From a bacterium (GTDB lineage: Bacteria; Electryoneota; RPQS01; DYHQ01): 64,000 nt of DNA. The stretch is from the NCBI GenBank assembly GCA_030622545.1, contig JAUXGA010000001.1, positions 62,001 through 126,000 on the forward strand, given 5' to 3'. Under the pieces are notes generated by a model. The model searched no databases and had not been told where the DNA came from. It saw only the letters and a list, made by a program, of their open reading frames with translations. Below, piece after piece: positions 45,451 through 61,115 of this stretch. The translations under genes and the position numbers were made by a program. Position 1 is the stretch's first letter, and every line of letters starts with the position of its first letter.

Positions 45451-46293
45451 TTAGCTCGTGGCAGTGTCGTTTGTTTTGCCAATAAAACTCAAGACGAGAC
45501 GGCGATATTCATCCGGAGAAAGCAGATCCTGCAAGTTCCTTGAAAGTTCTCCACCATCGTACATGGTATGGCCAAGCAGTTTTTTGCTGCGGCGCAGACT
45601 CTTGGTCAAGATGGAGTCGAGCCATTCGAGTTCTTTCAGGTACCATGGAAAAACAGCTTCTCCTACGCGGCAGAATCTCAAATCATCCTCAAGATTGTCA
45701 GGCTCGATACAGCAGAGCCATCCCTTACCCAGTGAATCAAGAACCAGCTCATCGGGAAAGGCATGCAGATCTTCATTCGTTTCTACAACTCGACCGGATA
45801 CCGGTGACAAGATTGAAAAAACCCTGACTCCCTGAATGATCTGACAGCAGCATTCTCCACGCAGGATTCGTTGGCCGCGTGCGGGTAACGACACGTCATC
45901 AATAGATCCCAAAACAATCGCTGCAATATTGTCGATACCAACATACACCCGATCCGGAGCCTTTACTTGAATCCAAGTGTGCTTCGGGTAGAAGTAGCGG
46001 TCGTCGTCGCGGAAATTTTCCAAGTGTGACACGAGCGAAAACCGCGTCGGATCGTAGTTCTGTCCTCGTCTTGAAACCGGTTCCACACTTGGAACCGGGC
46101 TTTTGTCCTTCGCTTCATCGGTGGTGGGAGTTCCCGCCAGTCCTCTCAATCCAATATCCAAAGGACAAGTATCGCAATTGAAATCTCGATCGCAGATCTT
46201 ATAAGCGACCACACCGAGTTCCATCCAGACACAGGGTTTATCCCCTTTCGGAATGACGGAAAACCGGCCTTCGTTTTTTGGTTTCGGATTCAT
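45451..46293 (-). CDS. GcvH-like protein without the lipoyl lysine, with an N-terminal cysteine motif
   Basis: The 280-residue protein has an N-terminal four-cysteine motif (CVWMELGVVAYKICDRD followed by NCDTCPLD). After a linker comes a lipoyl/GcvH-type domain: YPKHTWIQV, VGIDNIAAIVLGSID and ILSPVSGRVVETN, then GKGWLCCIEP. In the glycine cleavage H-protein the lysine 11 residues before SPVSG carries lipoate; here that position is a valine and the block reads CCCQIIQGVRVF, so normal lipoylation is not expected. Such H-like proteins with the cysteine N-terminus are often encoded beside heterodisulfide-reductase-like genes in anaerobes. Here it diverges from such a cluster. I infer a partner of the Hdr system; its chemistry is unknown. 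Confidence 0.75.
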   Translation of the reverse strand: MNPKPKNEGRFSVIPKGDKPCVWMELGVVAYKICDRDFNCDTCPLDIGLRGLAGTPTTDEAKDKSPVPSVEPVSRRGQNYDPTRFSLVSHLENFRDDDRYFYPKHTWIQVKAPDRVYVGIDNIAAIVLGSIDDVSLPARGQRILRGECCCQIIQGVRVFSILSPVSGRVVETNEDLHAFPDELVLDSLGKGWLCCIEPDNLEDDLRFCRVGEAVFPWYLKELEWLDSILTKSLRRSKKLLGHTMYDGGELSRNLQDLLSPDEYRRLVLSFIGKTNDTATS

Positions 46294-47557: not shown

Positions 47558-48154
47558 ATGCCATCCATTCCGCCCATTCCAGAGCCAAAGCGACAGCGCG
47601 AGGCAGATCTGCGCGAGGCCTTCTTAAAAGAGGTCGCAGGCATACCCGCTGGTGAAAAAATAAAGAACTGCATTCAATGCGGCACCTGCACCGCCACTTG
47701 TCCGGTCTCTCGCTGGATGGACATCACTCCGCGTGAGACGGTCGCCCTATTCCGGGCCGGAATGCTCGAGGAAATTTTGGAAAGCCGCACGATCTGGATC
47801 TGCGCCTCGTGCTACTCGTGCACGGTCCGATGTCCCATGGGCATCCAAGTGACAGATCTGCTGTATGCTCTGAAGCGGCTTGCAACGGACAAAAAGATTT
47901 ATCCGAGTCGCTTCCCTGCCCATGCGCTGTCGGATACTTTCATTTCCAGTCTATACAGGTTCGGTCGGATTTACGAGCTGGAGTTGGGATTAAGATACTT
48001 CCTCAAAACTCATCCCCTGAAGCTTCTTGCGAACATAGGCTTTGGTCTCTTGATGATCATCAAAGGCCGGATGGCTATATTGCCAAAGCGAATCAAAAAG
48101 GCGAATGAGGTCAAGGCTATCATTAATCGCGCCAAAGAACTGGAAGGTGTGTGA
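47558..48154 (+). CDS. hdrC: Heterodisulfide reductase-like subunit C
   Basis: The 198-residue protein is an iron-sulfur relay with two cubane sites, CIQCGTCTATCPVSR and CASCYSCTVRCPMGI, the HdrC layout in which HdrC passes electrons from HdrA to HdrB. The C-terminal helices are typical of bacterial HdrC. GGAGG precedes the ATG. It is the first gene of the run, and its stop overlaps the hdrB start by one base. In methanogens HdrC works with CoM-S-S-CoB, which bacteria lack, so the natural acceptor here is unknown. Confidence 0.92.
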   Translation: MPSIPPIPEPKRQREADLREAFLKEVAGIPAGEKIKNCIQCGTCTATCPVSRWMDITPRETVALFRAGMLEEILESRTIWICASCYSCTVRCPMGIQVTDLLYALKRLATDKKIYPSRFPAHALSDTFISSLYRFGRIYELELGLRYFLKTHPLKLLANIGFGLLMIIKGRMAILPKRIKKANEVKAIINRAKELEGV

Positions 48155-49038
48155 TGGAATACGCCTACTATCCGGGATGCAGCCTCGAATACTCGGGCAA
48201 ACCATATGATAAGTCCATTCGCGAAGTATTCAAAGCGCTGGGTGTGAAATTGCGTGACATCAAGGACTGGAATTGCTGTGGGGCTACAATGTACGTGTCA
48301 ATTGATAAAATCGTCGCCTGTTCCGTGGCCGCCCGCAACCTTGCCCTCGCGCAGAACATGGGCTGCGATATCTGTGCGCCATGCAATAGCTGTTACACAA
48401 TCCTTCGCAAGGTCAACCGCTATCTCGCCTACGATCCAGAGATGCGTGGCAAGATCCTCGAAGTTTTAAAGGCGGCAAACCTCACATATGACACACCTGT
48501 GGATGTTCGCCATCCGCTGGACATTCTGGTGAACGATGTGGGACTCGATACTATTAAAGAGGCAGCGCCATATCGCTTCGATGGTCTTAAAGTGGCTCCC
48601 TATTATGGTTGTCAGCTTGTCCGCCCTGAACACCACTTTGACGATGTGGACGATCCTATGACCATGGACAATCTGCTGACGGCGTTGGGAGCGGACGTTG
48701 TGCCGTTCGCCTCTAAGGTGCGCTGCTGTGGCGGTAGTCTGATGACCACATGCGAGGAGGTCGCGCTGGACCTGAACAATAGTATCCTCAAGGATGCAGA
48801 GGACAACGGCGCTGAAATCATGGTTACGGCTTGCGCATTGTGTCAAATGAACCTTGAAGGCTACCAGAAAAAAATCAATAAGCGTTACAGTCAAAAGCAC
48901 AACATGCCAATCGTTTTCTTCAGCCAATTGATCGGACTGGCGCTTGGCGTAAATCCCAAGAGATTAGGCTTACAGTCAATGTTGGTAAAACCTAAAAACC
49001 TAAAACTGATACCTAAAGGGATGAAGGTCGAAGCATGA
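48154..49038 (+). CDS. hdrB: Heterodisulfide reductase-like subunit B (two CCG domains)
   Basis: The 294-residue protein has two full CCG-domain motifs: the first ends in DWNCCGATMY and CAPCNSC, the second in VRCCGGSLMTT and CALCQMN. In methanogen HdrB these ten cysteines bind two non-cubane [4Fe-4S] clusters that split the disulfide substrate, so the active site looks intact. The start overlaps hdrC and its stop overlaps the next gene (ATGA), so translation is coupled. Substrate is unknown; a low-molecular-weight or protein disulfide is the natural suggestion. Confidence 0.92.
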   Translation: MEYAYYPGCSLEYSGKPYDKSIREVFKALGVKLRDIKDWNCCGATMYVSIDKIVACSVAARNLALAQNMGCDICAPCNSCYTILRKVNRYLAYDPEMRGKILEVLKAANLTYDTPVDVRHPLDILVNDVGLDTIKEAAPYRFDGLKVAPYYGCQLVRPEHHFDDVDDPMTMDNLLTALGADVVPFASKVRCCGGSLMTTCEEVALDLNNSILKDAEDNGAEIMVTACALCQMNLEGYQKKINKRYSQKHNMPIVFFSQLIGLALGVNPKRLGLQSMLVKPKNLKLIPKGMKVEA

Positions 49039-50003
49039 GCGAGAATAAGACGCACGGCAACGGCAAGATTCCTCGCTGCCGAATCGGTTTATACATCTGC
49101 CACTGTGGAACGAATATCTCAAAGATGGTGAATGTGGTACGCATCGCCAAAGAGATGGCGAGCCACCCTGATGTGGTGGTGTCTCGGGAATACAAGTTCA
49201 TGTGTTCCGAACCCGGTCAGGAGCTCATCATTAAGGACATTGAAGAGCATAACCTTGACCGCATAGTGGTGGCAGCCTGCAGCCCACTAATGCACGAGCC
49301 TACCTTCCGCACCACCGTAGAGCGAGGCGGCCTGAACCGATACCTTTTCGAGATGGTCAATATCCGTGAGCAGTGTAGTTGGGTATCGATGAATCGCGAA
49401 GACGGCACGAATAAGGCTCGAGCCCTCATTCGGGGTGCTCTGGCGCGCGTGAAGTTCCACGAATCTCTCGAAATGCGACGAGTTACCATTGGCAGGCGCG
49501 TTATGATCGTAGGCGGAGGCATCGCCGGTATCGAGGCGGCCTTGCAGATTGCAGATGCTGGTTACGAAGTGATTCTGGTAGAGAAAGAGGAATCCATCGG
49601 CGGCCACATGGCCCAATTCGATAAGACATTCCCCACTCTCGATTGCGCCGCTTGTATTTTGACACCTAAGATGGTTGCGGTGGGAACACATCCCCGCATT
49701 CGTCTTATGACTTTTTCTGAAGTAGAAGAAGTTCAGGGTTACATCGGCAATTTCAAGGTTAAGGTTAGAAAGAAAGCGCGGTTTGTAGATCCCGAATTGT
49801 GCAATAGTTGCGGGTCGTGCTACGAGGTGTGCCCGAGTCAGCCTTACCCCAAGGACCGCCAGCTTATCATCGGGGACAAAGTTTATAAGAAAGGTCCCCG
49901 TCCAAAGCCGCGCTTGGCGGAATTGCTGAAGCAGGCGAGCGAATTGGCCGCCCCAACTGATGCTCAACCCATCCCCGAGCAGGAAGGAGCTGAACTACCA
50001 TGA
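49035..50003 (+). CDS. hdrA: N-terminal half of HdrA (FAD Rossmann part)
   Basis: The 322-residue protein matches only the first half of HdrA. It has the N-terminal domain with LYICHCGTNISKMVNV and VVAACSPLMHEPTF, a Rossmann FAD site MIVGGGIAGIEAAL (about residues 157-170), EKEESIGGHMAQFDKTFPTL, CAACILTP and one ferredoxin-like site CNSCGSCYEVCP, after which it stops. The FAD domain of HdrA continues beyond this point; that continuation is encoded by the second half of the gene at 52539-54293. The break thus falls inside the iron-sulfur insertion of the thioredoxin-reductase-like fold, so the two polypeptides must associate to build one flavin site. ATGA overlaps link it to both neighbours. 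Confidence 0.88.
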   Translation: MSENKTHGNGKIPRCRIGLYICHCGTNISKMVNVVRIAKEMASHPDVVVSREYKFMCSEPGQELIIKDIEEHNLDRIVVAACSPLMHEPTFRTTVERGGLNRYLFEMVNIREQCSWVSMNREDGTNKARALIRGALARVKFHESLEMRRVTIGRRVMIVGGGIAGIEAALQIADAGYEVILVEKEESIGGHMAQFDKTFPTLDCAACILTPKMVAVGTHPRIRLMTFSEVEEVQGYIGNFKVKVRKKARFVDPELCNSCGSCYEVCPSQPYPKDRQLIIGDKVYKKGPRPKPRLAELLKQASELAAPTDAQPIPEQEGAELP

Positions 50004-50518
50004 GTCTCCCTGTCGAAGCCCAAGATGAACTCGAGCAGATAATCACCAGCATTGTTGACCGCTACAAGGCAAAACCGACGGCGCTGATTATGGCGTTGCA
50101 GGATATTCAAAAGTACTATCACTACCTTCCGATAGAGGCCTTGAAACTGATAGCGAAGAAAATGAATCTGCCTGTCGCGCAGCTTTTTGGCGTTGCTACT
50201 TTCTTCAAGGCATTTAGCCTCACACCCAAAGGCAAGCATCACATGTGCGTATGCACCGGAACCGCCTGCCATGTCCGACAGGCTGGTGTTATTGTGGACA
50301 ATCTTAGCCGCTCTCTGGGCATAAACCCCGGTGAGACAACACCAGACGGGGAAATCAGCTTTGAGACGGTGAACTGCATAGGCGCTTGCGCATTGGGCCC
50401 CGTTATAACCGTTGACGACGAATACCATGGTCATATGACCGTCGCCAAGCTGAACAAGGTTTTGGACGACCTGCGCGGTAAAAAGACGGCTGAGGAAATG
50501 GTGGAGGAAGTGCAATGA
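50000..50518 (+). CDS. NuoE-like [2Fe-2S] subunit (24 kDa/HndA type)
   Basis: The 172-residue protein is the thioredoxin-fold partner of NuoF in NADH-oxidising modules. After an N-terminal helical part (IVDRYKAKPTALIMALQDIQ) come the four [2Fe-2S] cysteines in CTGTACHV and NCIGACALGPVI, all present. NuoE/HndA/HydC proteins accept electrons from the flavin of NuoF. It overlaps the genes on both sides by four bases, so it belongs to the same complex. It is inserted between the two halves of HdrA. Confidence 0.93.
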   Translation: MSLPVEAQDELEQIITSIVDRYKAKPTALIMALQDIQKYYHYLPIEALKLIAKKMNLPVAQLFGVATFFKAFSLTPKGKHHMCVCTGTACHVRQAGVIVDNLSRSLGINPGETTPDGEISFETVNCIGACALGPVITVDDEYHGHMTVAKLNKVLDDLRGKKTAEEMVEEVQ

Positions 50519-52527
50519 ACAACAATAAATTCACCTCGCCGGAAGACCTCAATCGTCTGAGAGAGCGCTTGGTCAAGCAGCGCGAGGAAGGCCGAATCAT
50601 TATTACCGTGTGTGCCGGTACCGGTTGCCTCGCCTGCGGATGTGAAGCGGTAACGGCAGCCTTCCGGGAGGCGCTGAAGGAAAACCAGTTAGAAGACAAG
50701 GTTGAAATCAGAACCACCGGATGTCACGGGTTTTGTGAGCGTGGCCCGTTGGTTGTTCTGCGACCGGAAGGCACTTTTTATCAGCGGGTAAAACCAGCGG
50801 ATGCGAAACTAATTGTAGAGCAGACCATCAAGCACGGGAAATTGGTCAACAAACTTCTGTATCGCGATCCCCAAACCAAAGAAGTTATTGTCAAGGAAGA
50901 TGATATTCCGTTTTACAGCAAGCAGATGCGTCTGATATTCGGTATGAACGGACACATGGATCCCACATCCATCAATGACTACATCGCTTTGGGAGGCTAT
51001 CAGGCTCTGGCTAAGGCTCTGCTTACGATGACACCGGAACAAGTCATTGACGAAGTCAAGAAATCAGGACTGAGAGGCCGTGGTGGCGGAGGATACCACG
51101 CGGGCAAGAAGTGGGCTTCCTGCCGTAGAGCTAAAGGAGAACCGAAGTATGTCATCTGCAACGCCGATGAAGGGGACCCGGGAGCTTTCATGGATCGCTC
51201 ACTGCTTGAAGGCAATCCCCACGGGGTTATTGAAGGTATGGTCATCGGTGCATTCGCCATCGGCAGTCATGACGGGTATGTGTATGTGCGCAACGAGTAT
51301 CCTCTGGCGGTGAAGAACCTGAACATCGCCGTTGACGCTGCCCGCGAGCATGGGTTTTTAGGGGATAACATTTTCGGAAGCAGCTTCAATTTTGATATCG
51401 ATGTTTCCCGTGGCGGCGGGGCGTTTGTGTGCGGCGAATCTACAGCTTTGATGGCATCGTTGGAAGGAAAAATCGGCGAGCCTCGGGCTAAATATGTCCA
51501 TACCGTTGATGCGGGTCTCTGGGATAAACCGTCCAATCTCAACAATGTAGAGACTTGGGCGAATGTCCCGCTGATTATTGAAAAAGGCGCTGACTGGTAC
51601 AGCCGGATCGGCACCGCGAGCTCAAAGGGAACCAAGGTATTTGCTTTGACCGGCAAAATTAATAACACTGGTCTTGTAGAAGTGCCGATGGGGATTACCC
51701 TCCGCGAGATTATCTTCGACATCGGAGGCGGGCCTCCGAAAGGCAAAAAATTCAAGGCGGTTCAGACCGGCGGCCCATCAGGCGGAACCCTCGTCGTCGA
51801 AACACGCGAGCCGAAGGTGCATGAAAGCCTCGTGGCACACGGCGATATTCGCGACGAGGAGGAAGTCGTAAGTCTGCTCGATTTGCCGGTGGATTTCGAC
51901 GAACTGACTAAAGTCGGGTCCATGATGGGCTCGGGTGGCATGATTGTCATGGACCAAGACTCGTGCATGGTGGATGTGGCCAAATATTTTCTTAACTTCC
52001 TGCAGGAGGAGAGCTGCGGCAAATGTACCCCCTGTCGCGAGGGATTGCGCATCACGTTGGAGATACTGACACGCATCTCCGAAGGCAAAGGGCAAATGGA
52101 AGACCTTGACACTCTTGAGGAAATTTCGCAGGTGATGATTGACACATGCCTCTGTCAGTTGGGGGGAAGCGCACCCAACCCGGTTCTGTCCACGATTCGC
52201 TATTTTCGACAAGAATATCTCGCTCACATTGTAGAAAAACGATGCCCGGCTGGGGTGTGTAAGGAGCTTGTATCGCATGCGATTGATGAAACCTGTACCG
52301 GTTGCCATGTCTGTTTTAGTGTATGTCCCACAAACGCGATTATCGGCCAAACCAAGACCCTCCATGTCATCGACCAGGATGCCTGTATCCAATGCGGCGC
52401 GTGCTATCAGCTTTGCAGGTTTGACAGCATCAAACGAGTGAAGCGCGGCGAAGGTGACGCGATTCAGTATGTGGCGAAAGAGAAGTGGCATCCACCCGTG
52501 AAAAAGAAAGCCGCCGCCGTAGCTTAG
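50515..52527 (+). CDS. NuoF-like NADH-binding diaphorase subunit with extra ferredoxin domains
   Basis: The 670-residue protein has, in order, an N-terminal [2Fe-2S] thioredoxin-like domain (VCAGTGCLACGCEA; TTGCHGFCERGP), the FMN/NADH-binding domain (SGLRGRGGGGYHAGKKW; CNADEGDPGAFMDR), an SLBB region, the NuoF [4Fe-4S] site ESCGKCTPCREG with a distant ligand near DTCLCQLGG, and two C-terminal [4Fe-4S] ferredoxin motifs (CTGCHVCFSVCP; CIQCGACYQLC). This is the HydB/HndC layout used in NAD(P)-linked hydrogenases. The glycine-rich loop reads GGYHAG where most relatives have AGFPTG, and the usual CGEETAL reads CGESTAL. It should oxidise or reduce NAD(H) or NADP(H). Confidence 0.92.
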   Translation: MNNNKFTSPEDLNRLRERLVKQREEGRIIITVCAGTGCLACGCEAVTAAFREALKENQLEDKVEIRTTGCHGFCERGPLVVLRPEGTFYQRVKPADAKLIVEQTIKHGKLVNKLLYRDPQTKEVIVKEDDIPFYSKQMRLIFGMNGHMDPTSINDYIALGGYQALAKALLTMTPEQVIDEVKKSGLRGRGGGGYHAGKKWASCRRAKGEPKYVICNADEGDPGAFMDRSLLEGNPHGVIEGMVIGAFAIGSHDGYVYVRNEYPLAVKNLNIAVDAAREHGFLGDNIFGSSFNFDIDVSRGGGAFVCGESTALMASLEGKIGEPRAKYVHTVDAGLWDKPSNLNNVETWANVPLIIEKGADWYSRIGTASSKGTKVFALTGKINNTGLVEVPMGITLREIIFDIGGGPPKGKKFKAVQTGGPSGGTLVVETREPKVHESLVAHGDIRDEEEVVSLLDLPVDFDELTKVGSMMGSGGMIVMDQDSCMVDVAKYFLNFLQEESCGKCTPCREGLRITLEILTRISEGKGQMEDLDTLEEISQVMIDTCLCQLGGSAPNPVLSTIRYFRQEYLAHIVEKRCPAGVCKELVSHAIDETCTGCHVCFSVCPTNAIIGQTKTLHVIDQDACIQCGACYQLCRFDSIKRVKRGEGDAIQYVAKEKWHPPVKKKAAAVA

Positions 52528-52538
52528 GAGAGCTATTC

Positions 52539-54293
52539 ATGGAAAAAGTGTCCATAACCATTGACGGGAAGCCCATCGAAGTTGAAGAGGGAAGCTATGT
52601 CCTCCAAGCTGCGGAGGAATTGGGGATTAAAATCCCGACACTCTGCTACTATGAGCATATGACTCCCTACGCGGCGTGCCGAATCTGCTCCGTAGAAGCG
52701 CGGGACGGAAAAGGCTGGACAAAAATCGTAACCGCCTGTAACTATCCCGCATGGGATGGCCTGCAAATTTTCACGGACACACCGCGGGTAATCACCGCAC
52801 GCAAAGTCAACCTCGAAATGCTCATGAGCCATTGTGCCCCTGCTCCCGTGCTGCAAGAGCTCGCCGACGAACTCGGCGTCAAAGAGCCGCGCTGGGGCAT
52901 CGGCACAGACACCTGCATTATGTGCGGTCTCTGCGTGCGTATCTGTGACGAGGTAGTCGGCGCTCACGCTCTCACATTCAGCAGCCGCGGGATTGACCGT
53001 GAAGTCTCGACTCCGTTCAAACTTGAAAGCGAGGACTGCATTCTCTGTGGAGCATGTGCACGCTACTGTCCCACGGGGCATATCAGAATGACGGATACCA
53101 ATGGCCGGATACTACATTCGGAGCTTACACTCGGACCCAACACAGCGATATCGATTCCATTCCGGCAGGCAATTCCCAACGCCCCGCGCATTGACCCAGA
53201 TTATTGCATCCACATGGCAACCGGCGGCTGCAAGCTGTGCTCCAAAGTTTGCCCCAAGGAATGCATCAACTATGAGGACAAGGACGAATTCGAAGAGCTC
53301 GAGATTGGTGCCATCATTATCGCCACGGGGTTCCAGGACTTTGACCCCACCCCTATGCAGCAATTCGGATACGGCAAGTATCCGAATGTTCTTAGCTCCA
53401 TAGAATTCGAGCAGATGAATAATGCGGCCAGTCCCACGGATGGGAAAATTCTAATGGAAAACGGCGAGGAGCCGCGTTCTATTGCTATTCTGCATTGCAT
53501 TGGTAGCCGCGACGAAGACCACCATAAGTACTGCAGCCGCGTCTGCTGTATGTATGCCCTCAAATTCGCCCATCTGGTCAAGGAAAAGACCAACGCTGAA
53601 GTGTACCAACTCTACATCGATATGCGCACCTTTGGCAAGGGCTACGAGGAGTTTTATCAGCGAATCCTTACGGAAGGAGTGAATGTCATTCGGGGCAAGG
53701 GTGGCGAGATCGTTCCCGCTCCGCCTGAATACAGCAGTGAAGGCAATCTCCTAGTGCGATGCGAAGATACGCTGATTGGTAAATTCCGCGAAATTCCGGT
53801 GGACATGGTGATTTTATGCACCGCCCTTGAAGCCCGGGGCGATGCAGAGGACATTGCCCGGAAGTTCAACATCTCGACGGGAGCAGACGGCTGGTTCATC
53901 GAGGCTCACCCGAAATTGGCTCCGGTATCCACGACCACCGAAGGAGTTTTTCTGGCTGGCGTATGTCAGGGACCGAAAGATATTCCTGATACGGTGGCAC
54001 AAGGCACCGCCGCCGCGGCTCATTCGATAAGGCTGCTTAATATGGGTGAGGTCTTGATGGATGCTGCCTACGCCGAAATCGTGGAGGAATTCTGCAGCGG
54101 CTGCCGCATCTGCAACGGCTTGTGCCCATACAACGCGATTACCTTTGACGAAGAGAAAAAAGTGAGTGAAATAAACTCGGCGCTTTGCAAGGCGTGCGGA
54201 ACATGCGTGGCTGCCTGTCCGACCGGTGCCATCAAGGCTCGCCATTTCACGGACGACCAGATTTACGCACAAATTGAGGGGATTCTGGCATGA
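52539..54293 (+). CDS. hdrA: Fusion of HoxU/NuoG-type N-terminus with the C-terminal half of HdrA
   Basis: From the ATG at 52539 (TTAGGAG upstream) the protein is 584 residues. Residues 1-190 resemble the N-terminal part of NuoG/HoxU: a [2Fe-2S] site (C36, C47, C50, C67) and two [4Fe-4S] sites (C126-C136; C167-C177). The usual histidine-cysteine cluster motif is missing; its place reads LMSHCAPAPVLQ. From about residue 200 the sequence turns into HdrA: IPFRQAIPNAPRIDPDYC, GAIIIATGFQDFDPT, CIGSRDEDHHKYCSRVCCMY, FGKGYEEFYQR, a flavin-binding end with GPKDIPDTVAQGTAAA, and two ferredoxin sites (CSGCRICNGLCP; CKACGTCVAACP). It supplies what the gene at 49035 lacks. Confidence 0.9.
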   Translation: MEKVSITIDGKPIEVEEGSYVLQAAEELGIKIPTLCYYEHMTPYAACRICSVEARDGKGWTKIVTACNYPAWDGLQIFTDTPRVITARKVNLEMLMSHCAPAPVLQELADELGVKEPRWGIGTDTCIMCGLCVRICDEVVGAHALTFSSRGIDREVSTPFKLESEDCILCGACARYCPTGHIRMTDTNGRILHSELTLGPNTAISIPFRQAIPNAPRIDPDYCIHMATGGCKLCSKVCPKECINYEDKDEFEELEIGAIIIATGFQDFDPTPMQQFGYGKYPNVLSSIEFEQMNNAASPTDGKILMENGEEPRSIAILHCIGSRDEDHHKYCSRVCCMYALKFAHLVKEKTNAEVYQLYIDMRTFGKGYEEFYQRILTEGVNVIRGKGGEIVPAPPEYSSEGNLLVRCEDTLIGKFREIPVDMVILCTALEARGDAEDIARKFNISTGADGWFIEAHPKLAPVSTTTEGVFLAGVCQGPKDIPDTVAQGTAAAAHSIRLLNMGEVLMDAAYAEIVEEFCSGCRICNGLCPYNAITFDEEKKVSEINSALCKACGTCVAACPTGAIKARHFTDDQIYAQIEGILA

Positions 54294-54787
54294 CGAATTT
54301 CGAACCGAAAATCCTCGGTATTCTCTGCAATTGGTGCAGTTACACGGGTGCAGACCTCGCGGGAACCGCCCGCATGAAATATCCTGCCAACATGAGAAGC
54401 GTGCGGGTGATGTGCAGCGGTCGAGTGGACCCGGGGTTCATCTTCGACGCACTGCGCGCGGGTGCCGACGGCGTGCTGGTGTGCGGCTGCCATCCCGGCG
54501 ACTGTCACTACCATGAAGGCAATTACAAGTGTATGCGGCGCATCCCGCTGACGAAAATCCTGCTCGAAGACATGGGAATTGATCCCCGGCGACTTCGACT
54601 CGAATGGGTTTCCGCCAGCGAAGGCGCACGCTTTCAGCAGGTAGTCACCGAGTTTACAGAAGAACTTCGCGCTCTTGGCCCGCTCAAGCTACGTGAGCTA
54701 AACTTTGATCCTGACCATCCAGCCGGAGGCGATAACCATGTCGCCGTCGAGAGTGCAGCGCACGACGAACTTGAAGCGGGTCATTAG
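54290..54787 (+). CDS. mvhD: MvhD-like hydrogenase/Hdr linker subunit
   Basis: The 165-residue protein is a small [2Fe-2S] subunit that connects the hydrogenase to HdrA. The five conserved cysteines lie in LCNWCSYTGADLAG, VMCSGRVDP and VCGCHPGDCHY. About fifty residues of C-terminal extension, rich in His, Asp and Glu, follow the usual end. ATGA overlap with the fusion gene upstream and a short gap to mvhG downstream place it exactly between the HdrA-type and hydrogenase parts, as in Mvh-Hdr complexes of methanogens. Confidence 0.92.
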   Translation: MTNFEPKILGILCNWCSYTGADLAGTARMKYPANMRSVRVMCSGRVDPGFIFDALRAGADGVLVCGCHPGDCHYHEGNYKCMRRIPLTKILLEDMGIDPRRLRLEWVSASEGARFQQVVTEFTEELRALGPLKLRELNFDPDHPAGGDNHVAVESAAHDELEAGH

Positions 54788-54795
54788 GAGAAATC

Positions 54796-55767
54796 ATGGC
54801 GAAACCAAAACTTGCCATATATTGGGCAGCATCTTGTGGCGGATGTGATATCGCCATCCTCGACATCGAGGAGAAAATCCTCGATGTGGCCGAATTCTTT
54901 GACCTCGTTTTCTGGCCGTGCGCGATGGACTTCAAGTATGCCGATGTGGAAGCGATGGAAGATAAATCTATCACCCTCACGCTGTTTAATGGAGCTATTC
55001 GCAGCGATGAGAATTACCGCATCGCGCAGCTCCTGCGTAAAAAATCTGTTGTCCTGTGTGCCTTTGGAAGCTGTGCCTCCGAAGGTTGCATACCCGGTTT
55101 GGCCAACCTGTGTAATCTTGACTCCATTCTCGACTATGCGTATATTAAATCTCCATCAGTGAACAACTCGAATAAGATTATACCGCAGACAAAGACAAAA
55201 GTGCCCGAAGGAGAACTCACTATACCCCGATTGTGGAACACCGTGCGCACGTTGCCGCAAGTGGTGGATGTTGACTACATTATCCCCGGTTGCCCGCCGC
55301 AGTCCGATCAGATTATCGAGGTGCTTACCACTATCATTGATATTCTGAAAAATGATAAACCTCTACCTGAAAAAGGAACCGTCTTAGGGGCCACGGACAA
55401 GAGCGTTTGTGATGAGTGTACGCGTGAGCGTGATATAAAGAAGATTACCAAATTTATTCGTCCCTATGAAATCATCCCAGATCCCGATCTCTGTCTCCTT
55501 GAGCAAGGGATTGTATGTCTCGGCCCGGCGACTCGTTCGGGGTGCGGAGCCAAATGCGTATTGGCTGGTGCGCCCTGCCGCGGCTGTTATGGCAAGCCGC
55601 AGAATATACGCGACCAAGGCGCGAAGATGATTTCGGCGCTGGCCAGTGTGATTGATTCCACCGACCCCGAAGAAATCGAACGGATTATCCGTACAGTGCC
55701 CGACCCGATAGGGACATTCTACCGATTTTCACTGGCTGATTCTATGCTGAGGAGGGTGCAAATATGA
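54796..55767 (+). CDS. mvhG: Group 3c-type [NiFe] hydrogenase small subunit
   Basis: The 323-residue subunit carries the iron-sulfur chain from the [NiFe] site. The proximal-cluster cysteines appear in WAASCGGCDIAI, FGSCASEG and IPGCPPQ; further cluster ligands in VCDECTRERD, DLCLLEQGIVCLGP, SGCGAKC and CRGCYG. No twin-arginine signal or membrane anchor, so it is cytoplasmic, as in F420-non-reducing (Mvh) hydrogenases. It overlaps the large subunit by four bases. Confidence 0.93.
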   Translation: MAKPKLAIYWAASCGGCDIAILDIEEKILDVAEFFDLVFWPCAMDFKYADVEAMEDKSITLTLFNGAIRSDENYRIAQLLRKKSVVLCAFGSCASEGCIPGLANLCNLDSILDYAYIKSPSVNNSNKIIPQTKTKVPEGELTIPRLWNTVRTLPQVVDVDYIIPGCPPQSDQIIEVLTTIIDILKNDKPLPEKGTVLGATDKSVCDECTRERDIKKITKFIRPYEIIPDPDLCLLEQGIVCLGPATRSGCGAKCVLAGAPCRGCYGKPQNIRDQGAKMISALASVIDSTDPEEIERIIRTVPDPIGTFYRFSLADSMLRRVQI

Positions 55768-57248
55768 AAAGCATTGTGATTGATCCTATCACCCGCCTCG
55801 AAGGTCACGGGAAAATCCACCTGTTCATAAAGGACGACGGTGAGCTGGCCAATTGTTATTTTCAAGTGCCTGAATTACGTGGGTTTGAAGCTTTCTGCGT
55901 GGGGCGGCCAGTTGAGGAGCTATGCCGTATCACCACTCGTATCTGTGGTGTTTGTCCGGATGCTCACCACATGGCGTCTGCCAAGGCTATTGATGCGGTG
56001 TTCGGCGCAGAGATTCCCTCGGCGGCTCATAAACTGCGCAACCTTCTGTACAACGGGTTCTACGCCAGCGACCATACCGCTCACTTTTACGTTCTTGCCG
56101 GTCCGGATTTCATTTGCGGGCCTGATGCACCTCCGGGCGAACGCAACATCCTCGGGGTTATCGCCAAGGTTGGTCTTGATGCGGGAAAAAAGGTGATTGC
56201 TCAGCGTGCGAACGGCCAGCGCGTTATTGAGATTATCGGCGGAAAAAAGGTTCATCCCGTAACCGCACTCCCCGGTGGTATGTCTAAGCGCATCTCGAAA
56301 GAAGAACAGGAAGAGCTCATCAAGATCGGCGAAAACATGGTCGAGTTCGCCAAGTTCTCTATCCAAATAGTGAACGATGTTGTACTGGCGAATGAAGAGT
56401 ATGTAGATATGATTCTCTCTGATACCTACGCTCATAAAACTTACAACATAGGCCTCGTGGATGAGAACAACAAAGTGAACTTCTACGATGGCAAAGTGCG
56501 CGTTACGGATCCCGACGGGAAAGAACACTGTAAGTACGAACCAAAAGATTATCTCGAGTATCTGGCCGAACATGTAGAGCCTTACAGCTATCTCAAATAT
56601 CCTTACCTCAAGAAGGTCGGCTGGAAAGGTTTTGTGGATGGGGTGGATTCTGGTGTGTTCAAAGCCACGCCGCTGTCCCGGTTGAATGTGTCCGACGGCA
56701 TGGCGACTCCGCTGGCGCAAGCCGAATACGAACGCTTTTATGAAACGCTCGCGGGGGACAGCAGCGGTAAAACTCCCGTTCATGGCACGCTGGCCACTCA
56801 CTGGGCCCGCGTGGTCGAATTGGTTTACTCATGCGAAGCGGTGTTAGAGCTGGCCAAGGACGATGAGATTACATCAGACCATATATTTGATCCTCCGAAA
56901 GGCATCGTCGGTGAGGGAGTGGGCGTCGTGGAGGCTCCGCGCGGGAACTTGACCCATCATTACAAGACTGACGAGAACGGCATCGTCACCGAGGCTAACC
57001 TTATCGTGGGAACAACTAATAACAACGCAGCCATCTCGATGTCCATTAAGCGGGCTGCGGAGGGTTTGATTAAGAAGGGTACTGAAATAACTCAAGGAAC
57101 CTTAAACCGGATCGAGATGGCGTTCCGCGCCTACGACCCATGCTTTGGCTGCGCCACTCACTCGCTGGCCGGTGAAATGCCCCTTGAGGTTATTGTGCAC
57201 GATGCTGAAAGCGGTGAAGTCATCCAAACGGCACAACAGAATTGCTGA
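55764..57248 (+). CDS. mvhA: Group 3c-type [NiFe] hydrogenase large subunit
   Basis: The 494-residue catalytic subunit splits or makes H2. Both metal-binding motifs are intact: RICGVCPDAHHMASAKAID near residue 58 and DPCFGCATH near residue 459. The sequence continues 28 residues beyond the histidine of CATH (to ...QTAQQNC); in most [NiFe] hydrogenases such a tail is cut off by a protease after nickel insertion, and a protease gene follows at once. The N-terminus (VIDPITRLEGHGKIHLFI) is standard. The call as group 3c rests on the Mvh-Hdr context and the lack of signals for export. Confidence 0.93.
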   Translation: MKSIVIDPITRLEGHGKIHLFIKDDGELANCYFQVPELRGFEAFCVGRPVEELCRITTRICGVCPDAHHMASAKAIDAVFGAEIPSAAHKLRNLLYNGFYASDHTAHFYVLAGPDFICGPDAPPGERNILGVIAKVGLDAGKKVIAQRANGQRVIEIIGGKKVHPVTALPGGMSKRISKEEQEELIKIGENMVEFAKFSIQIVNDVVLANEEYVDMILSDTYAHKTYNIGLVDENNKVNFYDGKVRVTDPDGKEHCKYEPKDYLEYLAEHVEPYSYLKYPYLKKVGWKGFVDGVDSGVFKATPLSRLNVSDGMATPLAQAEYERFYETLAGDSSGKTPVHGTLATHWARVVELVYSCEAVLELAKDDEITSDHIFDPPKGIVGEGVGVVEAPRGNLTHHYKTDENGIVTEANLIVGTTNNNAAISMSIKRAAEGLIKKGTEITQGTLNRIEMAFRAYDPCFGCATHSLAGEMPLEVIVHDAESGEVIQTAQQNC

Positions 57249-57736
57249 AACCTATTCTCATATTATGTCTCGGCAACGAGATTGTCAGCGATGATGGCTT
57301 CGGTGTAGAGATTGCGCGGCGGCTCACGGATGTAGGTAATATACCAGAATCCGTCGAAGTAGTTTTTGCGCCGATCGCAGGTTTTGCTCTCCTTGATCTA
57401 TTGGCGGGCCGCGCGAAAGTGCTTATTGTGGACACAATCCGCACAGGCAACGCCGCGCCGGGAACGCTGCATAAGTTTGCTGCTGGAGTTCTTACCCCGT
57501 CTAAAAACCTGACCACCAGCCATCAGATTAGTTTGCCCACTGCGCTGGAATTCGGGCGGCAGTTAGGATTGGATATGCCTGACGATATAGATGTGATTGC
57601 TGTGGAGGCAGAAGACCTCGAGACGGTGAGTGAACAGCTTACGCCCTCCGTTCAGGCGGCTGTGGACCAAGCGATACGATTCGTATGGGATTGGATATCA
57701 CGCAACGCCACAGAGGAGATTACTCATGCCAACTGA
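57242..57736 (+). CDS. Hydrogenase maturation protease (HycI/HoxW family)
   Basis: The 164-residue protease removes the C-terminal tail of the large subunit. It has the family opening LILCLGNEIVSDDGFGVEIA with the nickel-sensing acidic residue, the second acidic ligand in VLIVDTIRTG, and the HQIS-type histidine (TTSHQISLPTAL). The start is a TTG at 57242 that overlaps the mvhA stop. It lies directly after its probable substrate gene, and the DnaJ-type zinc protein begins 11 bases before its end. Confidence 0.9.
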   Translation: MLKPILILCLGNEIVSDDGFGVEIARRLTDVGNIPESVEVVFAPIAGFALLDLLAGRAKVLIVDTIRTGNAAPGTLHKFAAGVLTPSKNLTTSHQISLPTALEFGRQLGLDMPDDIDVIAVEAEDLETVSEQLTPSVQAAVDQAIRFVWDWISRNATEEITHAN

Positions 57737-58031
57737 GAGAAAACGGGAACCATCCACGGGCGAACCCAAAACCTGCCCCGAGTGCAATGGTCGGGGTTGG
57801 ACGGATAACCTCTGCATCACCGAAGAACGCGCTCACCGATGCAGCTACTGTGATGGCAAAGGATTCGATGCGGCTGGAAAGGAATGCTACGCCTGCAGAG
57901 GCACAGGACTGATTGAAGTGCGCCGGGAGGACAAGAGTCCGTGTCCACTATGTCAGGGCGCTGGAGTCTATCCTGTTCCTGAATCCATGACGATAGAACA
58001 ATTCGCGTTTCATCCCGGTAAAAAAGTATAG
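57726..58031 (+). CDS. Stand-alone DnaJ-type zinc-finger protein (no J domain)
   Basis: From the ATG at 57726 the protein is 101 residues and contains four CxxCxGxG repeats: CPECNGRGW, CSYCDGKGF, CYACRGTGL and CPLCQGAGV. That is a complete DnaJ/Hsp40 cysteine-rich zinc-finger domain, binding two zinc ions, without the J domain or client-binding domains. It overlaps the protease gene by 11 bases and is followed by a nickel-permease-like gene, so it is embedded in the hydrogenase maturation block. I infer a chaperone or thiol-redox role in handling the unfolded large subunit or a metal donor. The function is not established. Confidence 0.8.
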   Translation: MPTERKREPSTGEPKTCPECNGRGWTDNLCITEERAHRCSYCDGKGFDAAGKECYACRGTGLIEVRREDKSPCPLCQGAGVYPVPESMTIEQFAFHPGKKV

Positions 58032-58048
58032 CTTTACTCTGGAGAAGC

Positions 58049-58699
58049 ATGTCAACTGAACTTTCTTTACTACTCGGGGCGGCCGCCACTCTGGGCTTTG
58101 TCCATACGGTGCTTGGCCCTGATCATTATGTGCCATTCATCGCGATGGCGCGAGCTCGCCGGTGGTCTTCTCGCCATGCGTTGTGGATTACTTTCTTGTG
58201 TGGGGTAGCTCATGTGCTGGGTTCGGCGTTGATTGGAGCTGCTGGCTTGTTGTTCGGCATCAAGGTACTCAAGCTCGAAATATTTGAGTCGGCACGAGGT
58301 AATATCGCCGGATGGTTGCTGCTTGGCTTTGGGCTGGCTTATATGATTTGGGGAATTCGCCGCGCCGCCCGCCAAAGCGCACCTGCATTGAGCAAGTTTA
58401 AAGAGCAGGCTAAGGATGGAAACATCATACCTTGGATTCTCTTTACAGTCTTTATATTTGGCCCTTGCGAGCCGCTGATTCCTGTGCTGATGTATCCCGC
58501 GGCCACAGCTAATGTGCCATGCTTGCTGGCTGTCATCGCTACCTTCGGTCTTTTTACTGTGGGCACGATGATGGCTCTCGTCTATGTCGCACAGCGCGGA
58601 TTGGCTGTATTGCCAGTACGCACCACCGCACGCTACTCCCATGCGCTGGCGGGATTCATGATAGCAGCATGCGGAGCGGGAATCCAGTTCGGTCTATAG
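58049..58699 (+). CDS. UreH/NicO-like membrane protein, probable nickel permease
   Basis: The 216-residue protein has six predicted membrane helices. The first helix carries HTVLGPDH, an H-x4-D-H pattern like that needed for nickel binding in NiCoT and NicO/UreH permeases, and helix 2 has GVAHVLGS with another histidine. FIFGPCEPLIPVLMYPA is typical of the UreH-like group within the TauE/SafE-related families. GGAG precedes the ATG. Position between the hydrogenase protease and hypF supports nickel supply for the [NiFe] site. A sulfite or other anion exporter of the same superfamily cannot be excluded. Confidence 0.7.
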   Translation: MSTELSLLLGAAATLGFVHTVLGPDHYVPFIAMARARRWSSRHALWITFLCGVAHVLGSALIGAAGLLFGIKVLKLEIFESARGNIAGWLLLGFGLAYMIWGIRRAARQSAPALSKFKEQAKDGNIIPWILFTVFIFGPCEPLIPVLMYPAATANVPCLLAVIATFGLFTVGTMMALVYVAQRGLAVLPVRTTARYSHALAGFMIAACGAGIQFGL

Positions 58700-58799
58700 T
58701 TCTTGCTGCTGCTGTAAGATAGAAATTGGCCGATTCTTGCTTGAATGTACTGAGGTCGCCCGGGCCTTCGAGAGTGAAGTTCAGGGCGATATTTTTATT

Positions 58800-61115
58800 A
58801 TGTCTGCAATGATTCGACACGTGGCAATCCATGTATTCGGCACGGTGCAGGGCGTGGGATTCCGTCCTTTCATCTATAACCTTGCTGGTCTGCATGGACT
58901 ATCGGGAACAGTACTGAACAACAACTGTGGAGTACACATCCGCGCACAGGGTCCCGCGGATCGTCTTCAGGCGTTTGTCGAAGCTGTTCGCTACGCTGCT
59001 CCCACCGCAGCCCGTGTGGAAGACCTGCAGACGACATCGTTGCCTCTGGCGCCGTATGTGGATTTTCGCATTCTTCCCAGTGAAGCCGAAAGCGATGGTT
59101 TCACGCTGATACCGCCTGACCTTGCTCTTTGCGACGATTGCCGGCGCGAACTGAACGAGCAAGAGGATCGCCGCTTTGCCTATCCGTTTATTAATTGCAT
59201 CCAGTGCGGCCCGCGTTTCACCATTGTTCGCACCCTGCCCTACGACCGCCCGCAGACAACCATGAATGTGTTTGCGATGTGCCCGGACTGTCGAGAAGAA
59301 TACGTAAGCCCGGCCAACCGACGCTATCACACACAGCCGGTGTGTTGTCGCGATTGCGGCCCTGAGCTGCGGTTCCTTAGTGCATCGTCCCATGAATGGG
59401 TACAAAAAGAGCAAGGTGAAACAGTAATCGCCCATTTAGTCGAAGCTCTGAAGGAACGGAAGATTGCGCTCATTCAAGGAATCGGCGGATTCCACCTCGC
59501 ATGCGATGCACGCGACGAAGAGCTTGTGCTCCAACTGCGACGGCGCAAACAACGCGATGAAAAGCCGTTCGCTGTGATGTTTCCCAGTGAACGCCATGTC
59601 CGAGAGAATTGCGAGGTTACTGAAGCCGAATTGGAACTTCTGCGCTCGTCACACGCACCCATTGTGCTGCTGAGAAAACGCGCAGGAAGTGTTGTAGCTT
59701 CGGCAGTAGCTCCTGAGAATCCCTTCATCGGCAGCATGCTTCCATACTCGCCGATTCACCTGCTTGTGCTCCGGGAGTTCGGTCATCCCCTCATCATGAC
59801 CAGCGCCAACCTGACCGATGAACCGATTGCTTATCAACTTGATGACGCACTGGTTAGACTACAAGGCGTGGCTGATGTAGCCCTTGTGCACAACCGTGAA
59901 ATCCACATCTTTGCCGATGATTCGGTGGCTCGCGTAATCAATGGTTCGCCGCGCATCTGGCGGCGGTCGCGCGGTTATGTCCCGCAACCTGTGAAGGTGT
60001 CGGAGCGTTTCCGCGTGCACACCCTCGCCTTCGGCCCACAACTCAAGAATACATTCTGCCTCGGTCGCGAAAAGATCGCGTTGCTCTCGCAACACCTGGG
60101 AGACATGGACACCGAGCAAGCCATCGAGGCTCAGCAGGCAGCCCTCAAGCATTTTCTTCACCTCTTCGATGCACAGGTAAAACTGGCGGCGTGCGACCTC
60201 CATCCCGACTATACGACTACGCGCATTGCAAAGGAGTGGTGCAACGCGCGTGGTATTCCCCTCATTCGCGTACAACACCATCACGCACATCTCGCAGCGT
60301 GTTTGGCTGAGAATGGAGAGAAGGATTCTGCCATCGGACTGTGCCTCGATGGCACAGGCTACGGCACCGATGGCGCCATCTGGGGCGGCGAGATTCTGGT
60401 CGGGGATGCTAACAGCTTTTCGCGAGCTGCGCACTTGCAGGAAGTTCCGTTGCTCGGAGGTGAGCAGGCGATTCGCCAGCCGTGGCGCATGGCGTTGGCA
60501 TGGCTGTATGAAGTCTTCGGAGAAAGCCTGTTCGACCTTCCGCTTCAGTTCATTCAATCGGTGTGTGCAGAGGTCGGCGAAAACGCCGTGAAAATGCTCC
60601 TGAATTCCGGCCTTGTTGCCAAAGCTTTTCCGTCCACATCCAGTCTCGGACGATTGTTCGACGCGGTCGCCGCGCTTCTATTCTTCGGTGTGCGTTCTCA
60701 ATATGAAGGACAGGCGGCCATGCAGCTCGAATGGCGGATGTCCACCACGCCTGAAAAGCCATATCCTTTCGGCATTCGCCCGTCGGACAGCCACTTCATC
60801 CTTTCACCTGAACCCATGTTCCACGCGCTGGTGGATGATCTTACCGCAGGAGTCCCCTCGGAAGTTATCTCACGACGGTTCCATGAAGGGGTTGTAGAAG
60901 GATTTGCTCGATTGTGTGAAATAGTCAGCGAGTCTACCGACCTTCATACAGTAGCGCTAAGCGGGGGATGTTTTCAAAACGCGTTCTTGGAATCCATTCT
61001 AACTGAGAGACTATCTGCACGAGGATTTCGCGTGTTGACACATCATCATGTGCCCACCAATGATGGCGGTGTGGCTCTCGGTCAAGCAGTCGTAGCCAAT
61101 ACACAAGGAGACTAA
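58800..61115 (+). CDS. hypF: Carbamoyltransferase HypF
   Basis: HypF makes the thiocarboxamide on HypE that becomes the cyanide ligands of the [NiFe] site. The 771-residue protein has, in order, an acylphosphatase domain (IHVFGTVQGVGFRPFIYNLA), two zinc-finger units (CDDCRRELNEQEDRRFAYPF...CIQCGPR; CPDCREEY...CCRDCGPE), a YrdC-like domain (KRKQRDEKPFAVMF-type block, MTSANLTDEPI) and the carbamoyl-transfer domain with HHAHLAACLAENG and LCLDGTGYGTDGAIWGGE. Start at ATG 58800 or 58809. HypC follows after three bases. Confidence 0.96.
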   Translation: MSAMIRHVAIHVFGTVQGVGFRPFIYNLAGLHGLSGTVLNNNCGVHIRAQGPADRLQAFVEAVRYAAPTAARVEDLQTTSLPLAPYVDFRILPSEAESDGFTLIPPDLALCDDCRRELNEQEDRRFAYPFINCIQCGPRFTIVRTLPYDRPQTTMNVFAMCPDCREEYVSPANRRYHTQPVCCRDCGPELRFLSASSHEWVQKEQGETVIAHLVEALKERKIALIQGIGGFHLACDARDEELVLQLRRRKQRDEKPFAVMFPSERHVRENCEVTEAELELLRSSHAPIVLLRKRAGSVVASAVAPENPFIGSMLPYSPIHLLVLREFGHPLIMTSANLTDEPIAYQLDDALVRLQGVADVALVHNREIHIFADDSVARVINGSPRIWRRSRGYVPQPVKVSERFRVHTLAFGPQLKNTFCLGREKIALLSQHLGDMDTEQAIEAQQAALKHFLHLFDAQVKLAACDLHPDYTTTRIAKEWCNARGIPLIRVQHHHAHLAACLAENGEKDSAIGLCLDGTGYGTDGAIWGGEILVGDANSFSRAAHLQEVPLLGGEQAIRQPWRMALAWLYEVFGESLFDLPLQFIQSVCAEVGENAVKMLLNSGLVAKAFPSTSSLGRLFDAVAALLFFGVRSQYEGQAAMQLEWRMSTTPEKPYPFGIRPSDSHFILSPEPMFHALVDDLTAGVPSEVISRRFHEGVVEGFARLCEIVSESTDLHTVALSGGCFQNAFLESILTERLSARGFRVLTHHHVPTNDGGVALGQAVVANTQGD

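Follow-up and report, generated by a model that had tools for sequence, protein, structure and literature searches.

The window analysed here, the whole 64,000-nucleotide stretch taken from contig JAUXGA010000001.1 of assembly GCA_030622545.1, carries an operon for an MvhAGD-HdrABC-type [NiFe] hydrogenase in which HdrA is divided between two genes, the second of them fused to a HoxU-type module. All genes lie on the plus strand in the order hdrC-hdrB-hdrA(N)-nuoE-nuoF-HoxU·hdrA(C)-mvhD-mvhG-mvhA-protease, with mostly overlapping stops and starts:

47558-48154, plus strand: hdrC, with two [4Fe-4S] (TIGR03290 at 76 bits, under the cut-off; Fer4_17).
48151-49038, plus strand: hdrB, the non-cubane cluster subunit, with two CCG domains (PF02754 in two stretches).
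49035-50003, plus strand: hdrA-N (NF040770 positions 1-256; 5odc_A 4-283; 10/10 conserved Cys columns).
49800-49832, plus strand: CxxCxxCxxxCP, first motif of the HdrA inserted ferredoxin (C256-C266; four Cys invariant in 27 aligned rows).
50000-50518, plus strand: nuoE, or BfuC (PF01257 at 163 bits; HoxE/NuoE models).
50515-52527, plus strand: nuoF, or BfuB, 670 aa (closest solved relatives 9mqx_B, 7t2r_B and 8a6t_B).
52539-53108, plus strand: HoxU/BfuA-type module, the N-terminus of the second HdrA chain (NF040763 1-215; 9mqx_A 4-188).
53124-54293, plus strand: hdrA-C, in frame with HoxU (NF040770 262-640; 5odc_A 242-649; 17/17 conserved Cys columns).
53205-53252, plus strand: second motif of the HdrA inserted ferredoxin (C223, C231, C234 and C238, invariant in 32 aligned rows).
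54290-54787, plus strand: mvhD (PF02662 at 183 bits).
54796-55767, plus strand: mvhG, [NiFe]-hydrogenase small subunit (PF01058; NF045875 at 208 bits, under the cut-off).
55764-57248, plus strand: mvhA, [NiFe]-hydrogenase large subunit (PF00374; NF041785 at 421 bits, under the cut-off).
57242-57736, plus strand: hydrogenase maturation protease (TIGR00072 at 112 bits).

HdrB also matched TIGR03288 (206 bits) and SdhE (204 bits), both under the cut-off. The MvhA, MvhG and MvhD genes were all present over the Pfam cut-offs, with VhuA and VhuG matches under the NCBIfam equivalog cut-offs, and we take MvhAGD to be a group 3c-type [NiFe] hydrogenase.

The hdrA-N product consists of the HdrA N-terminal domain, the first FAD (thioredoxin-reductase-like) part, the first ferredoxin motif and a tail of about 55 residues; hdrA-C supplies the second ferredoxin motif, the remaining FAD domain and the C-terminal ferredoxin. 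Residues 16-269 of hdrA-N corresponded to positions 1-256 of the HdrA2 model NF040770 (E-value 9e-113) and residues 195-582 of the HoxU·HdrA-C protein to positions 262-640 (E-value 5e-133); as halves would, neither reached the whole-protein cut-off of the model. The HoxU·HdrA-C protein starts at ATG 52539 and has 584 aa, the longer GTG frame from 52485 being mechanical. An initial annotation, made from the sequence, had proposed this division and had suggested an alignment to a solved HdrA, in which little overlap between the halves would count in its favour; on 5odc the two chains indeed tile the protein (4-283 and 242-649), the homology of the N chain fading past the first ferredoxin motif.

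The tiling was analysed on 26 distinct intact HdrAs, to which 30 distinct N and 27 distinct C halves were added as fragments (identical sequences merged; two Thermodesulfobacterium rows, L032 and L090, left out of the N set; MvhD-fused HdrAs, L094 onward, failed the BLAST filter for intact proteins). The columns with cysteine in at least 95% of the intact set were all kept (27/27), 10 in the N half, each in 30/30 rows, and 17 in the C half, each in 27/27 rows except for one in 26/27. Of the near-invariant columns, 80/89 in the N half and 94/117 in the C half were conserved in 90% or more of the split rows; none was missed by both halves, and the single column covered by both looks like an alignment artefact. 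The N-terminal Cys, the FAD Rossmann motif, the Cys of the thioredoxin-reductase domain and the inserted and C-terminal ferredoxins of HdrA were all found across the two chains (the individual Cys presumably belonging to the clusters to which we assigned them), encoded by two open reading frames (ORFs) with nuoE and nuoF between them and not as one continuous chain.

The break falls inside the iron-sulfur insertion, as the initial annotation had it, and lies between both Cys motifs of the inserted ferredoxin (C256-C266 on one chain, C223-C238 on the other). In ordinary 2[4Fe-4S] ferredoxins the fourth ligand of each cluster comes from the opposite motif. Because of this usual pattern and the position of the break, each inserted-ferredoxin cluster is predicted to be ligated by three Cys from one chain and a fourth from the other. 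The N-half tail after the first motif (49833-50000) has a recurring P..R.(L/I/M)..G in the operon types A, B and C described below, not in the related locus L177, and looks absent from intact HdrA in the alignment slice viewed; it is perhaps a clamp to HoxU or HdrA-C.

NuoE- and NuoF-like genes do lie between the halves, and the first 190 or so residues of the second chain are, as had been read from the sequence, a HoxU-type module that matches HydA, HoxU and BfuA, with 9mqx_A (from a structure entitled bifurcating tungsten aldehyde oxidoreductase) as the best single-stretch match; in a Foldseek comparison the HoxU part of the model superposed on 9mqx_A with a TMt of 0.71 and a root-mean-square deviation (rmsd) of 1.7. 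The NuoF includes a thioredoxin-like [2Fe-2S] domain, the FMN 51K domain, SLBB (26.0 bits, slightly below the 27-bit cut-off), NADH_4Fe-4S and two C-terminal [4Fe-4S] motifs, and scored 726-761 bits against the top three bifurcating enzymes (9mqx, 7t2r and 8a6t) vs 365 bits against the best complex I NuoF. The InterPro domains of the Bfu proteins, which we take to map to these Pfam families, were thus present for BfuB (51K, SLBB, NADH_4Fe-4S and 4Fe-4S), as was the thioredoxin-like domain of BfuC. The domain definition of BfuB and BfuC, and that of a Type 2 BfuA with clusters A1, A2 and A4 and no A3 or A5, are from PMC9304861 (papers are cited here by PubMed Central number, for the parts of their text that were available); the HoxU part, with its [2Fe-2S] domain, two CxxCxxCxxxC motifs and no His-ligand motif by eye, agrees with Type 2. 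By sequence, the genes in the gap form a Bfu core (HydABC-type, acting on NADH and ferredoxin) and not a plain diaphorase, and the module may itself bifurcate between NAD+ and ferredoxin. The diaphorase directly wired to HdrA of the initial annotation therefore stands as far as the fusion to HdrA-C is concerned, but has to be widened to a Bfu/HydABC-type core.

The same gene order was sought in other genomes, as the initial annotation had advised. Both halves were present as separate genes in 16/39 genomes of the window's phylum (G000, G031, G033, G034, G035, G008, G011, G015, G025, G036, G038, G014, G026, G029, G030 and G032); except in G031, G033 and G038, the two share a contig (13/16). The N half alone was found in two more genomes of the phylum, G037, where it lies at a contig end, and G001, where no module gene matched the queries in the ~3.5 kb downstream of it (L081). 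In the Zixibacteria-containing phylum, HoxU·HdrA-C was detected in 12/132 genomes at E-values up to 1e-125, 11 of which also had the N half (none was listed for G039). No other HdrA, beyond ferredoxin and Rossmann fragments, was found in the window's genome (2.66 Mb in size, completeness 96%; 42/42 candidates scored), where only the two HdrA pieces and MvhD appeared at an E-value of 1e-40; with at most 19 candidates scored per genome, 8/16 split genomes, the window's included, had only the N half, the C half and MvhD at E-values up to 1e-40. A complete HdrA elsewhere in the genome, which would have spoken against the division, was therefore lacking. Genome G023 (L078) encodes an intact HdrA of 746 aa in an otherwise identical hdrC-hdrB-hdrA-mvhD-mvhG-mvhA order, so nuoE, nuoF and HoxU sit inside what elsewhere is one gene. 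A single-chain fusion suspected in G029 (a 958-aa open frame) was discarded, since a TAA separates the genes.

More distant loci have related arrangements. In the phylum that contains Thermodesulfobacterium, HoxU directly followed by HdrA-C was found in at least 17/395 genomes (frames of 818-1132 aa, E-values up to 1e-110; a lower bound, three candidates having been scored per genome). In the nine Desulfobacterota-type loci examined (L164-L172), a second HdrA follows HoxU·HdrA-C in proteins of about 1077-1115 aa; the Rossmann half of HdrA is fused to NuoE upstream in L168, L171 and L172, and NuoF is fused to GltD in L168 and L171.

The two halves also evolved together. Among the 22 operons in which both halves were usable frames (G011, G031, G033, G034, G039, G046 and G063 are not in this set), the correlation of pairwise identities between the N and C halves was 0.90 (Mantel p 0.0002), compared with 0.41 between the N half and HoxU (p 0.0004) and 0.32 between the C half and HoxU (p 0.024); the bootstrap difference between the N-C and N-HoxU correlations was 0.48 (0.21-0.77). 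At the sequence level the halves, encoded as separate chains, behave as one protein, and HoxU, though it is on the HdrA-C chain, behaves as a module; no other single argument for a joint HdrA is as strong as this coevolution. When the halves were modelled singly with AlphaFold2 (AF2), the mean predicted local distance difference test scores were 74.9 and 71.3, with a predicted template modelling score of 0.50 each, and the best Foldseek matches of both models were solved HdrA chains (the models being modest, their whole-chain rmsd is uninformative; HoxU itself aligns well). Poor order was seen in these models at residues 186-208 of the N chain and 455-461 and 476-496 of the C chain, although these segments contain invariant or nearly invariant positions; they are expected to line the FAD site, and such disorder would fit a need for the partner or FAD. 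The sequences, the relatives and the coevolution strongly imply one flavin site shared by the two chains.

The gap between the halves holds different inserts. Type A, that of the window, has NuoE, NuoF (670 aa) and HoxU; type B has ~3 kb more, encoding CBS-HATPase, DRTGG, PHP and HATPase proteins in L069 (similar by eye in L024 and L025), in place of which L067 has a protein with an Fe-hydrogenase C domain. Genes of the CBS-HATPase, DRTGG, PHP and HATPase types accompany HydABC hydrogenases. A further ORF of L024, 127 aa long and without a Pfam match, is 37% identical to a NuoF N-terminal region. The contig break in G038 (L072, L073) hides the gap, and its assignment to type B is from the NuoE, NuoF and HoxU sequences alone. 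Type C has HoxU alone, with no NuoEF between the halves, and type D has GltD on a single HdrA chain (L029, 1243 aa; L182, 1161 aa), L029 retaining both HoxU [4Fe-4S] motifs. In L177, HdrA-N is fused to NuoE (442 aa) at one end of the cassette and HoxU to HdrA-C at the other, so the cassette lies inside HdrA. The single 1430-aa frame at L080 (1919-6211) reads GltD, HdrA-C, HdrA-N, HdrA-C, with an HdrA-N fragment match across its start: a bacterial tandem HdrA with a GltD insert.

The exchange of these modules was analysed in 22 related operons (13 of type A, four of type B, five of type C; 231 pairs), with five more distant rows set aside. Mean HoxU identity was 72% in type A, 71% in type B and 59% in type C, as against 50% for A-B, 48% for A-C and 39% for B-C pairs; for HdrA-C it was 77-78% within types and 74-75% between them (between-type range 68-84%). 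The shift in identity falls inside one ORF, at some point within about residues 145-265, its position varying among pairs. L178 showed the converse, its HoxU being 67-83% identical to the main type A and its HdrA-C only 56-61%, with a NuoF that groups with type A. In the trees, HdrA-C joined the window with L072 (96/92) and L177 with L178 (99/98), pairs rejected by HoxU in approximately unbiased (AU) tests (p 2.9e-5 and 0.001), and the union of L178 with its HoxU relatives was rejected by HdrA-C (p 0.0004). The 13 main type A NuoFs, that of L178 included, had as their sister the NuoF of a second cluster in the window's genome, L189 (99, Shimodaira-Hasegawa-like approximate likelihood ratio test); type B formed a separate clade (97), and L176 and L177 fell elsewhere, L177 with the Desulfobacterota-type L168 and L172 (96). 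NuoF and HoxU of types A and B move together. A wider HdrA-C tree of 65 rows, from which six long HdrA rows were excluded (L086, L145, L080, L075 and the second ORFs of L166 and L173), placed L177 and L178 near intact HdrAs (88) and needed a minimum of five changes between split and intact or type III; HdrA splitting, or cassette entry, may have occurred more than once. As judged from these sequences, the gap behaves as an exchange site in which two Bfu lineages, HoxU alone or GltD occur on related HdrA backbones.

The L189 cluster (contig C14, 6658-12676) has, by eye, a 2-oxoacid oxidoreductase set beside NuoE-NuoF-HoxU; relative to the window, identity is 70% for the NuoF of this cluster and 41% for its HoxU, and the type A NuoF may have come from such a cluster. 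The same genome has two more Bfu-like clusters: L190 (5423-13480), in which a 589-aa NuoF and a protein resembling Fe hydrogenases accompany a 1269-aa BfuA with GltD, and L191 (4866-9631), in which NuoF and GltD are fused (1064 aa) and occur with NuoE and HoxU.

Taken together, the operon probably encodes a soluble MvhAGD-HdrABC [NiFe]-hydrogenase/bifurcase whose HdrA is built from two chains, with a Bfu module in the gap and the split site serving as an evolutionary socket. The HdrA chains would meet within the inserted ferredoxin domain and form together one bifurcating FAD site. In methanogen HdrA, MvhD passes electrons to the C-terminal ferredoxin, and the inserted one is described as the way out towards free ferredoxin (PMC9012536), the low-potential route including the clusters HA3, HA5 and HA6 (PMC6019823). 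Since BfuA joins HdrA at the inserted ferredoxin, the Bfu module would be wired to the low-potential branch, giving a reversible link from this branch to a BfuBC core that has NAD(H) and ferredoxin as substrates, while H2 would react at MvhA and some further couple at HdrB. DsrC was considered as the HdrB partner and set aside, as it was not found in the window's genome. We judge it somewhat more plausible than the contrary that the inserted ferredoxin is a modular socket in the full sense, the split allowing whole-module swaps by recombination inside the fused gene and yielding two bifurcation sites in series (HdrA FAD and BfuBC FMN) and two [4Fe-4S] clusters ligated across chains.

The main rival has the same parts and a flow opposite to that of methanogens: the NADH module would be the entry, NADH and reduced ferredoxin feeding the shared ferredoxin, and HdrA would confurcate these electrons with those of HdrBC to make H2 at MvhA. 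The initial annotation had also spoken of electron entry; the module does sit at the inserted ferredoxin of HdrA, but this is the reported low-potential exit (PMC9012536), which leaves entry as one possible direction. For the type III HdrAs, which have GltD at the same site, NAD(P)H has been proposed as the donor or acceptor of mid-potential electrons (PMC12054007); in Bam-Bfu, NADH and ferredoxin are proposed to supply HdrA with electrons, and HydABC-type modules are called reversible (PMC9304861). Direction is not fixed by sequence, and set against the methanogen exit branch we regard NADH entry as a possibility to be held tentatively. A second alternative accepts the two-chain HdrA and makes NuoE and NuoF mere operon neighbours, a separate Bfu enzyme with another partner, HoxU being a docking domain; type C operons with no NuoEF beside HoxU·HdrA-C would suit it, as would the four further NuoF-type cluster domains (PF10589) in the window's genome, since modules could be shared. 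It is improbable given the covalent fusion of HoxU to HdrA-C, the joint movement of NuoF and HoxU in types A and B and the fusion of NuoE to HdrA-N in L177.

That the halves are decayed or repurposed pieces which never combine could be argued from their separate chains, encoded ~2.5 kb apart, and from the 6/9 distant HoxU·HdrA-C loci with no recognised separate N piece nearby; the retention of all conserved Cys and of most near-invariant columns, conservation across two phyla and the N-C correlation make this very unlikely. An assembly error or frameshift artefact, foreseen by the initial annotation as a way in which the division might fail, might be suspected because the named split records are metagenome assemblies (from uncultured organisms) and because frames are interrupted in hdrA-N of L066 (13987-14792) and in NuoF of L072 (1133-3070), perhaps by assembly errors. 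We give it hardly any weight, as the same order and junctions recur in many independent genomes, and the halves share a contig in 13/16 of the phylum's split genomes.

Several observations weigh against the reading of a two-chain HdrA with an exchangeable Bfu module. The five type C genomes of the phylum have no NuoEF beside HoxU·HdrA-C, so an adjacent NADH core is not always needed by HdrA. In six of the nine Desulfobacterota-type loci (L164-L167, L169 and L170) a separate HdrA-N was not recognised in the fetched stretch, and a HoxU-fused C half may exist there with no separate N piece. The AF2 alignments were shallow (32 and 27 rows) and the models weak, which makes the argument from disorder soft; the interchain ligation is drawn from the ferredoxin pattern and not from coordinates. 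A single clade of the four type B rows was not rejected by the HdrA-C tree (p 0.229), which makes it uncertain how many exchanges took place; the remaining groups in the AU tests were named after the first trees and identities had been seen, and the HoxU tree has long branches (L039, L176 and L177).

The preferred two-chain hydrogenase/bifurcase resembles several described systems. The methanogen MvhAGD-HdrABC (5odc, 8rvu) has the same six subunit families, and both halves of the window match its HdrA, which is one chain there and two here; the HdrA site is always on one chain in the five distinct solved HdrA chains matched. To our knowledge, the methanogen complex has no NADH module. Flx-Hdr also links NADH to HdrABC (PMC10553843). 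Its NADH module is FlxABCD, but the ten scanned proteins of the window operon match hydrogenase, MvhD and NuoE/NuoF families and not a Flx-type module. The type III HdrAs of ANME-1 and Bathyarchaeota (PMC12054007; HdrA 9-11 in PMC9012536) likewise have a pyridine-nucleotide module in the ferredoxin insertion, in Bathyarchaeota next to mvhADG (PMC12054007, PMC9012536). They are single chains with GltD/NfnB, an arrangement found in the bacterial relatives L029 and L182; in the window HdrA is two genes, and its C half is fused to a Bfu core that several genes encode.

Bam-Bfu, unlike the window, has a benzoyl-CoA-reducing tungstopterin site, and we know of no [NiFe] hydrogenase in it. This BamB-I, class II benzoyl-CoA reductase system also combines HdrA with a HydABC-type BfuABC (PMC9304861); its HdrA-type module (BamE, compared by description only) is described with no mention of a split in the available text. 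The other Bfu/HydABC members with a Type 2 BfuA (Wor-Bfu, 9mqx; Por-Bfu) have NuoE, a long NuoF and a BfuA with [2Fe-2S] and two [4Fe-4S], as in the window, where the partner of BfuA is half of HdrA on the same chain, unlike in Wor-Bfu and Por-Bfu. No Hdr-Mvh type is among the family members described in the available text, and no description of a two-gene HdrA or of module exchange at this junction was found in the open PMC text searched. What was already known is thus the GltD insertion at this site in one chain (archaea) and the combination of HdrA with BfuABC (Bam); what is new is a two-gene HdrA that joins two known bifurcation families, and the split site as exchange site.

Outside the operon, a divergent gene upstream (45451-46293, minus strand) is GcvH-like by eye. 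The region 3' of the protease (57630-61115) has, by eye, genes for a protein with a CxxCxGxG-type zinc motif, a membrane protein and a HypF-like protein, and genes like these also follow the protease in L018.

Bifurcation needs one flavin placed precisely between two electron paths. A stable two-chain HdrA, if true, would be a natural test of the contacts that such a site requires, with halves that could be purified and recombined, and the pattern of exchange shows where evolution attaches new partners to HdrA. The proposed complex predicts two bifurcation sites in series with a hydrogenase, a coupling that has only been proposed for Bam-Bfu and not demonstrated. The split HdrA occurs in several groups of uncultured bacteria, and the apparent exchange of modules in its gap suggests a natural socket for rewiring hydrogen metabolism; such a socket would explain how the NAD(P)H, ferredoxin and H2 pools are coupled in different lineages, and would offer a junction for engineering.

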